From positions 1 to 64,000 of the forward strand of contig NZ_JASISZ010000004.1 in assembly GCF_030063355.1 (NCBI RefSeq): a stretch of DNA of 64,000 nt. The letters are read 5' to 3'. Shown one piece after another: positions 55,755-57,820 of the stretch (position 1 is its first letter; each line of letters begins with the position of its first letter). The notes below the pieces were generated by a model. That model worked only from the letters and a program-made list of their open reading frames with translations. It was not told where the DNA came from and did no database searches. Origin of the DNA: Streptomyces sp. PH10-H1 (GTDB lineage Bacteria > Actinomycetota > Actinomycetes > Streptomycetales > Streptomycetaceae). A program made the translations under genes and the position numbers.

Positions 55755-55772
55755 TGTGAGAGCGCTCTCACA
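55755..55772. promoter_or_regulatory. Perfect 18-bp LacI-type operator
   Basis: TGTGAGAGCGCTCTCACA is a perfect palindrome with the GAGCGCTC centre of LacI/CcpA-type sites. It lies 53-70 bases upstream of the LacI gene start and 76 bases before the ada-alkA start, so it may affect both promoters. Confidence 0.75.
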
Positions 55773-55847
55773 AGCTGCGCCGCCCCGCTGATCGCCATGT
55801 CTGATTTCCGCCAGTCGATTCCCGCCCGATGCCGCAGACTGGAGAAC

Positions 55848-57323
55848 ATGATTGACGAAGAGACCGGATATGCGGCGGTACGCGGCCGCGATGCCCGTTT
55901 CGACGGCGTCTTCTTCTTCGCCGTCGCGACGACAGGCATCTACTGCCGCCCCAGCTGCCCAGCCGTGACGCCTAAACAGCGGAACGTGCGCTACTATCCC
56001 ACGGCCGCCGCCGCCCAGAGCGGCGGCTTCCGCGCCTGCCGGCGCTGCCGCCCCGATGCCGTCCCCGGCTCCCCGGAGTGGAACATCCGTGCCGACGTCG
56101 TCGGCCGCGCCATGCGGCTGATCGGCGACGGCGTGGTCGACCGCGAGGGCGTCGCGGGCCTCGCCGACCGGCTCGGCTACAGCTCCCGCCAGGTCCACCG
56201 GCAGCTCACCGCCGAAGTCGGCGCAGGGCCCGTGGCGCTGGCCCGCGCTCAGCGCGCCCTGGCCGCACGGGTCCTGCTGCAGACCACCACGCTGTCCGTG
56301 ACCGACACGGCGTTCGCGGCCGGTTTCGCCAGCGTCCGCCAGTTCAACGACACGATTCGCGAGGTCTACGCCCGCACCCCGAGCGAACTGCGCGCCGCCG
56401 CGCGCGCCACCAAGACCGGCAGTGCCACCAAGACCGGCAACGCCACCAAGGAAGGCAGTGCCACCAAGGCCGGCAGTGCCGCCGCCCGTGCGGCGGAGCC
56501 CGGCGGCCTGGCGCCCGGTTCGGCCCCGGGTTCCGGCGTGCCCCTGCGGCTCGCCTACCGGGGCCCGTACGACGCGGCAGGAGTCTTCGACTTCCTGCGC
56601 GCGGACCTGGTGCCCGGGATCGAGGAGATCACCGGTCAGCCCGGCCGGCGCACCTACCGGCGGACCCTGCGGCTGCCGCACGGCCCCGGCGTGGCCGAGG
56701 TCGACGAGCGAGGCCGATCCGGCTGGCTCGACTGCCGGCTCCGCCTCGCCGACCTGCGGGACCTGACGACCGCCGTACAGCGGGTGCGCCGGCTGTTCGA
56801 CCTGGACGCCGACCCGTACGCCATCGCGGACTCGCTGCGCGGCGATCCCCTCCTCGGCCCGCTGGTCGCCGCCCGCCCCGGGCTCCGCTCACCGGGCGCG
56901 GCCGATCCCGACGAGCTGGCGGTCCGCGCCGTACTCGGCGGCCCGGCCGCCGCCGGGGCGCTCGTCACGGCGTACGGCGAGCCGCTCCCCGTCGCCGACG
57001 GCGGGCTCACCCACCTCTTCCCCGAACCCGCCCGTATCGGTGATCCCGCCCTGCGTCCGCTGACCGCCGCGCTGGCCGACGGAACCCTGCGGCTCGACCC
57101 CGGCGCCGACCGGGACGAAGCGGGCCGCGTACTCCTCACCTTGTCCGGCATCGACCCGTGGACGGCCGGTTACATCCGGCTCCGCGCCCTCGGCGACCCC
57201 GACGTCGCCCTGCCCAACGAACCACCGCTCAGTGACGCGTGGCGCCCCTGGCGCAGCTACGCCCTCCACCACCTCTGGGCCGCGGGCCACCGCGCCCGCC
57301 CCCGACTGGAGTTGACGACCTGA
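55848..57323 (+). CDS. alkA: Ada-AlkA fusion protein, glycosylase region altered
   Basis: The 491-residue protein joins an Ada methyl-acceptor domain (FFFAVATTGIYCRPSCP, then FRACRRCRPDA, four zinc Cys), an AraC helix-turn-helix, and an AlkA glycosylase domain starting near residue 215. A four-copy 18-bp repeat at 56406-56477 encodes the linker ATKTGS. The AlkA hairpin reads LSGIDPWTAGYIRLRALGDP, but the segment after it (LPNEPPLSDAWRPWRSYALH) lacks the usual catalytic Asp pair and about 13 residues. In E. coli AlkA the pair is DD in LPDDYLIKQRF. Glycosylase activity is therefore doubtful, while Ada sensing looks intact. It is followed by ogt with a one-base overlap. Confidence 0.83.
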   Translation: MIDEETGYAAVRGRDARFDGVFFFAVATTGIYCRPSCPAVTPKQRNVRYYPTAAAAQSGGFRACRRCRPDAVPGSPEWNIRADVVGRAMRLIGDGVVDREGVAGLADRLGYSSRQVHRQLTAEVGAGPVALARAQRALAARVLLQTTTLSVTDTAFAAGFASVRQFNDTIREVYARTPSELRAAARATKTGSATKTGNATKEGSATKAGSAAARAAEPGGLAPGSAPGSGVPLRLAYRGPYDAAGVFDFLRADLVPGIEEITGQPGRRTYRRTLRLPHGPGVAEVDERGRSGWLDCRLRLADLRDLTTAVQRVRRLFDLDADPYAIADSLRGDPLLGPLVAARPGLRSPGAADPDELAVRAVLGGPAAAGALVTAYGEPLPVADGGLTHLFPEPARIGDPALRPLTAALADGTLRLDPGADRDEAGRVLLTLSGIDPWTAGYIRLRALGDPDVALPNEPPLSDAWRPWRSYALHHLWAAGHRARPRLELTT

Positions 57324-57820
57324 TGACCAGCCCCGTGACCACTCCCGTGACCCTGTACACCACCTTCGACAGCCCCCTCGGCGAGCTCCTCCTCACCAGC
57401 GACGGCACCGCCCTCACCTCGCTCTCCGTCCCCGGCCAGCGCGGCGGCGCCACGATCCTGCCTGGCTGGCGCCACGAGCCGACCGCCTTCACTGAGGCCG
57501 AACGCCAGCTCAAGGAGTACTTCGCGGGCGACCGCCGGGAGTTCGACCTCCCCCTCGCCCCCACCGGCACCGACTTCCGCCGCAGGGTCTGGAACGCCCT
57601 CGACGCCGTCCCCTACGGCGCGACCGTCACCTATCGCGACCTCGCGGCAGCCGCCGGATCCCCCGGCGCGGTGCGCGCCATCGGCGGCGCGGTCGGCGGG
57701 AACCCGCTGCTCGTCCTCCGCCCCTGCCACCGCGTGATCGGCGCCGACGGCAGCCTCACCGGCTACTCCGGCGGCCTTGACCGCAAGCGCACTCTGCTCG
57801 CCCTAGAGGGCGTCCTCTGA
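57323..57820 (+). CDS. ogt: Methylated-DNA-protein-cysteine methyltransferase
   Basis: The 165-residue protein transfers the methyl group of O6-methylguanine to its own Cys. It has the fold signature FRRRVWNALDAVPYGATVTY and the active site LVLRPCHRVIGADGSLTG. It overlaps the ada-alkA stop as TGATG, forming an alkylation-repair operon. It also overlaps the 3' end of the convergent PPOX gene by 18 bases. Confidence 0.94.
   Translation: MTSPVTTPVTLYTTFDSPLGELLLTSDGTALTSLSVPGQRGGATILPGWRHEPTAFTEAERQLKEYFAGDRREFDLPLAPTGTDFRRRVWNALDAVPYGATVTYRDLAAAAGSPGAVRAIGGAVGGNPLLVLRPCHRVIGADGSLTGYSGGLDRKRTLLALEGVL

Follow-up and report, generated by a model that had tools for sequence, protein, structure and literature searches.

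What could be the role of a methylation sensor fused to a DNA glycosylase when the catalytic loop of the latter is missing? The question is raised by a gene at 55848..57323 of the window (the whole 64,000-nt stretch of Streptomyces sp. PH10-H1 DNA analyzed here), which encodes a 491-aa Ada-AlkA fusion with a degenerate glycosylase domain and lies on the + strand, as do ogt and all the domains, motifs and promoter elements described below. It is followed by ogt (57323..57820; O6-methylguanine methyltransferase, PCHRV motif intact), whose ATG overlaps the ada-alkA stop codon, i.e., the locus has the actinobacterial adaA-alkA / ogt operon layout. As an RsgA-like gene (a name read off the sequence) is found upstream in 58 of the 110 ortholog loci sampled, the position of ada-alkA looks like an old chromosomal place. 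Between a divergent LacI-type regulator gene and the Ada box discussed further below, there is a perfect 18-nt palindrome, TGTGAGAGCGCTCTCACA (55755-55772), which looks like the operator of that regulator, whose class was likewise read off the sequence.

Damage to the AlkA half of the protein

The first three domains are in good order: an Ada zinc/methyl-acceptor domain (residues 8-70, 55869..56057; Pfam Ada_Zn_binding, E 1e-27, and alignment) with C33, C37, C64 and C67 intact, an AraC-type DNA-binding domain (residues 105-183, 56160..56396; Pfam HTH_18, E 1.5e-18) and an intact AlkA_N domain (residues 233-353, 56544..56906; Pfam). The linker from the HTH to AlkA_N contains repeated (A)TK-x-G-(S/N)-A units (about 56405-56490), and it shows the highest dN/dS of the gene (0.83, limits 0.35-2.14, 17 codons).

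The segment around the lost loop reads GDPDV-ALPNEPPLSDA-WRPWRSY, in which LPNEPPLSDA (residues 455-464, 57210..57239) replaces the catalytic Asp loop together with the two helices following it, leaving 10 residues where most intact orthologs have 23 and locus L045 has 29. The start of the next helix is kept as WRPWRSY (residues 465-471, 57240..57260), whose W468 and Y471 are invariant in all 135 rows of the alignment described below. LPNE aligns opposite LPDD of E. coli AlkA, which puts Glu458 at the position of the catalytic Asp (D238 in the E. coli numbering). The helix-hairpin-helix GIG is replaced by GID (residues 434-436, 57147..57155), while the pocket aromatics W438 and Y442, equivalent to AlkA W218 and Y222, are present in the window protein (one member of its clade has Arg at W438). 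Sequencing error or a frameshift can be ruled out as the source of the loop, since four other genomes of the 135-row set carry the identical LPNEPPLSDA.

A search with Pfam HhH-GPD at E 0.01 returned no match in the window protein or in any of the six degenerate relatives scanned, whereas all four intact relatives scanned matched, albeit weakly, with the curated cut-off reached by L045 alone. The first-pass annotation of this DNA, which had described an Ada-AlkA fusion lacking the catalytic-Asp loop and about 13 residues, with a GID hairpin and an intact Ada sensor, thus proved accurate in all these respects. The damage goes further than it had described, with the DNA-wedge segment GQ[QL]VS replaced, by alignment, by GGPA (residues 364-367, 56937..56948), and with the MP-x-x-R loop absent altogether.

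Despite these deletions, the AlphaFold2 model of the window protein (mean pLDDT 85.3; predicted as a whole) retains an AlkA-like fold with the hairpin helices kept, and superposes on E. coli AlkA 1mpg with a Z of 28.4 (rmsd 2.2 A, 240 residues). Of the helices in the intact L045 model, three (375-380, 453-461 and 468-476) are missing from it, so the structure prediction proposed along with the first-pass annotation yields an AlkA-like scaffold lacking three helices.

Loss of the Asp loop among related genes

The loci compared comprise the best 80 of 391 matches of one genome scan and the best 30 at most from each of two whole-genome searches, from which a 135-row alignment was made of sequences scoring at least 340 BLAST bits, with duplicates removed (110 orthologs and 25 outgroup or paralog rows; the cut locus L142, L141 and the C212 copy, both below 340 bits, and repeat loci were left out). 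“Intact” here means an Asp at the respective column within a loop 20 or more residues long, and L042, L064 and L107, which have an Asp letter inside a short loop, were scored as lost. By this definition the Asp loop is lost in 83 and kept in 27 of the 110 sampled orthologs, a ratio that, as the loci were chosen by similarity to the window protein, describes the sample and is not a frequency in nature; all 25 outgroup or paralog rows keep it. The alignment revealed no Asp elsewhere that would stand in for the lost one, and although most of the sampled orthologs share the loss, none of them is known to be an active enzyme, so neither of the two findings named as refuting the first-pass annotation applies.

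At the Asp column, the 83 degenerate rows have Glu (18), Ala (15), Thr (11), Arg (8) and many other letters, with Glu in all five rows of the window clade. The wedge segment is absent from every degenerate row and present in 26 of the 27 intact ones, whereas the MP-loop and the Trp equivalent to AlkA W218 have each been lost in 72 of the 83, although the latter is kept in the window. Having retained Glu at the Asp column and, in the window protein itself, W438 and Y442, the window clade is less eroded than the others.

Loss of the Asp loop occurred several times in related species. On a tree for which the Ada, HTH and AlkA_N columns were used (trait columns excluded), parsimony requires 7 changes (6 if L042 is recoded as intact, 8 if L042, L064 and L107 all are), and a mixture-model tree, likewise without the trait columns, that covers 59 of the 135 rows, namely 30 of the 83 degenerate, 25 of the 27 intact and 4 outgroup, also gives 7. 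A single ancestral loss was rejected on these 59 rows, as forcing the 30 degenerate ones to be monophyletic lowers the log-likelihood by 158 units (p-AU 2.9e-84); a joint origin of the window clade and the big Streptomyces clade was rejected weakly (AU p 0.022). Whether the Asp loop and the wedge are lost together was assessed by independent pairs (4 vs. 0 with 1 tie, p 0.125), the events being too few for significance.

The nearest intact relative by tree path is L045, from Wenjunlia vitaminophila, with the loop LPTDAGVRHG. Several lineages keep the Asp in an altered setting (e.g., LESDVAVRAG and LTGDAAVRAG), and these look like half-way stages of the loss.

The genome under study also has an intact Ada-AlkA on contig C66, about 51% identical to the window protein, an Aag-type glycosylase and five genes with an MGMT domain. 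A third and distant Ada-AlkA (L008, on G000:C212; 35% identity) has an Asp in its loop (FPASDPYVR) and no match to the box discussed below within 3 mismatches. The Asp and the wedge are present in all 16 C66-type paralogs inspected, C66 included. Such a paralog (called at 75% identity or more to the C66 protein, with copies reading in two pieces accepted) is found in 81 of 83 degenerate as opposed to 13 of 27 intact genomes sampled, and was not found in two degenerate draft genomes, L085 and L115. In some genomes it reads in two pieces, among them the L016 genome of the window clade (G021:C1:3221264-3222773), where it may be broken or misassembled. Tempting as it is to regard the paralog as the cause of the loss, the association is significant when genomes are simply counted (Fisher p 1e-8) and non-significant on the tree, where about two informative pairs give a median p of 0.5, and loss after redundancy therefore remains a suggestion.

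The conserved sensor and its candidate regulon

The other half of the protein tells a different tale. C33, C37, C64 and C67 are found in all 135 rows. When the DNA-contact positions of E. coli Ada (as given in PMC3788762) are transferred onto the family through alignment with that protein, R66, R114 and R118 are found in 135 of 135 rows and Q115 in 131, with all four in each of the 83 degenerate rows, while the fifth position (E. coli Ada R45) is V40 in the window protein and V, I, T or M among degenerate rows. The reading frame is open in all of the latter.

In three degenerate clades, the Ada domain has a pooled dN/dS of 0.04, 0.04 and 0.11 and the HTH one of 0.03-0.05, and in the damaged half it amounts to 0.205 (0.117-0.341), 0.259 (0.190-0.359) and 0.339 (0.229-0.499), as compared with C-terminal values of 0.118-0.130 for the same-genome paralogs and 0.205 for the intact ortholog group. 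The damaged half is thus constrained, less so than that of the paralog, and, since the window clade (four of its five rows, L016 left out) has the very same 0.205 as the intact orthologs, relaxation there is seen against the paralogs only. Taken together, the invariant cysteines, the four of five invariant contacts, a dN/dS of 0.20-0.34 and the confidently predicted fold indicate that the gene is no pseudogene.

About 50 nt upstream of ada-alkA lies a conserved box, TGTCTGATTTCCGCCAG (55798..55814), which conservation and genome scans point to as a candidate actinobacterial Ada operator and which differs from the ada box of E. coli. It is accompanied by CAGACT (55835..55840), a candidate -10 element judging by its conservation; CA-ACT is common at the same spacing from the box, most clearly in degenerate rows, and as CAGACT is 8 nt ahead of the start codon, the mRNA would be leaderless or nearly so. 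A relaxed form of the box precedes 131 of the 135 family genes (81 of the 83 degenerate, all 27 intact and 23 of the 25 others) and none of 270 control windows inside genes. In a degenerate sub-clade (L046, L067, L103, L108, L129 and others), the usual ATTTCC box form at about -50 is replaced by CGTCCGAAA[AG]CCGCGAG.

The exact form, YGTCNGATTTCCGCYAG, occurs three times in the whole 8.5 Mb genome: at 55798-55814 ahead of the window gene, at G000:C66:86250-86266 ahead of the intact ada-alkA-ogt operon and at G000:C153:8627-8643 ahead of ogt and an Oxygenase-NA gene (PF09859). Across 35 genomes of the genus, there are 25 exact sites in 18 genomes (16 before ada-alkA, 8 before ogt and 1 before neither), as opposed to no site for the reversed pattern, and the AAA-type box variants seen at many genes of the wider set may explain the 17 genomes without an exact site. 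As a genome-wide scan allowing up to 3 mismatches gave 89 matches vs. 83 for the control, near-exact matches alone were used. One of these, a one-mismatch site on C122, has an invariant G broken and a 3 kb locus without an ada, ogt or oxygenase match, and was taken as chance.

Some of the individual sites deserve mention in their own right. At L171 (107-1433, - strand, on G000:C153), the order is box, ogt and then Oxygenase-NA, while at L199, L202, L211 and L219 of the same genus the box precedes ogt and no oxygenase match is present within the 3 kb locus. The one exact box next to neither ada-alkA nor ogt is in L204, where some 33 nt separate it from an unrelated-looking gene that resembles a flavin reductase (1468-746, - strand; class read off the sequence). 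No description of the box, or of its candidate Ada regulon, was found in the literature searches.

A probable sensor without an active enzyme, and its known relatives

Given the shared box and the shared DNA-reading residues, one regulon would seem to be read by both Ada-AlkA proteins, and the window protein itself is best explained, with a probability of roughly three in four, as a sensor of the Ada type that activates transcription and performs no base excision, its AlkA half being kept as a folded scaffold. Methyl-phosphotriesters in DNA would methylate a cysteine of the Ada domain (C33 by alignment), whereupon the protein would bind the upstream box via its Ada and AraC-type domains and activate the Ada regulon, which would here comprise the window gene together with the ogt behind it, the intact ada-alkA-ogt operon and the ogt/DNA-oxygenase pair. 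Excision of 3-methyladenine would then fall to the intact paralog and the Aag-type enzyme, and the AlkA remnant would be a scaffold attached to the regulator. Of the two roles the first-pass annotation had considered, that of a methyl-sensing regulator gains support from the invariant sensor, most of the DNA-reading residues, the repeated loss of the glycosylase and the family-wide promoter box. The other, with Glu as an alternative catalytic acid, fares poorly: as Glu occupies the Asp column in a mere 18 of the 83 degenerate rows and the wedge is gone from all of them, Glu is unlikely to act as a substitute catalyst, and the AlkA half has most likely lost catalysis altogether.

The retained scaffold could, though the odds are against it, offer Ogt a surface to dock on: Ada-AlkA and Ogt of M. 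smegmatis co-elute as a complex (PMC7432924), and ogt overlaps the window gene. Among the sampled loci, ogt stands behind ada-alkA in 35 of the 83 degenerate ones, 18 of the 27 intact ones and 22 of the 25 others. Against docking, 37 of the 72 degenerate loci with a resolved downstream side (more than 1 kb of downstream DNA) have no ogt there and keep the domain nevertheless (all 37 keep the relaxed box, too), even if Ogt copies encoded elsewhere could still be partners.

A bolder and rather doubtful idea is that parallel and repeated changes have made a fused repair enzyme into a regulatory domain without catalysis. This domain, corresponding in AlkA to the inactive ATL proteins, would read alkylated DNA or, working against the full-length paralog under the same operator, tune the Ada regulon that both share. 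ATL proteins bind lesions and belong to the Ogt family. As a precedent, they show that a repair fold can exist without repair activity (PMC10779285), and the AlkA half, too, could be a non-excising reader of lesions that signals alkylated DNA to the regulator or passes it on to other repair. The purifying selection on the scaffold, the intact AlkA_N and the pocket aromatics of the window protein would agree with such a reader, but the universal deletion of the wedge and the frequent loss of the W218 equivalent in degenerate rows make it unlikely that the family in general flips bases, and the lesion reader is improbable.

The gene could also be decaying, with no function beyond that of the intact paralog; such a paralog of the same architecture is indeed present in nearly all degenerate genomes, and here stands under the same box, but the dN/dS of 0.03-0.11 for the Ada domain and HTH in three clades, as well as frames still open in all 83 degenerate rows and boxes retained in 81 of them although the loop was lost several times separately, render decay quite improbable. 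That the glycosylase is still active with Glu458 of LPNE in place of Asp238 is very unlikely, for although this Glu aligns with the catalytic Asp throughout the window clade and the pocket aromatics are kept in the window protein, the rarity of Glu in other degenerate rows, the lost wedge and the absence of the two helices after the loop from the predicted model all speak against it.

Returning to the sensor and activator devoid of excision, the broader picture is that of a sensor-enzyme fusion that repeatedly sheds its enzyme and keeps its sensor, with intact and degenerate copies found here under the same candidate operator, and it thereby offers a natural experiment for telling sensing and repair apart within the Ada response. 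From the box, for its part, one obtains for Streptomyces and its relatives a candidate Ada regulon that is short and testable. A word of caution is also in order: in many Streptomyces genomes, an Ada-AlkA gene that would be listed as a DNA-3-methyladenine glycosylase may not encode one.

As for the known systems, the N-terminal domain of E. coli Ada has the zinc and methyl-acceptor cysteines, the AraC-type HTH and the equivalents of R71 and R118 in common with the window protein, whereas its R45, F114 and H115 correspond to V40, R114 and Q115, and the window protein is fused to an AlkA remnant rather than to Ogt. Comparable zinc/methyl-acceptor cysteines and an AraC-type HTH are also found in the Bacillus-type AdaA sensor. 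With E. coli AlkA (1mpg, 1diz and 3ogd), the window protein shares AlkA_N and, going by the predicted model, the overall fold, but not the Asp238 loop, the helices following it, the wedge or the MP-loop.

Also close in kind is the AdaA-AlkA of M. tuberculosis, which reportedly (Yang et al. 2011, DNA Repair 10:595) has no glycosylase activity and was proposed to be a regulator. In the Streptomyces set the Asp loop has been physically deleted, repeatedly and mostly beside a second Ada-AlkA; no report of such an Asp loss in Streptomyces Ada-AlkA was found in the literature searches. M. tuberculosis has the same AdaA-AlkA fusion with a separate ogt (adaB) (PMC5751216), and the two genes that MNNG induces there are alkA and ogt (PMC5057432). 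What is known, then, is the fusion in mycobacteria and, for M. tuberculosis, the notion of a regulator, and what seems to be new is the repeated physical loss of its active site in Streptomyces, together with the box.
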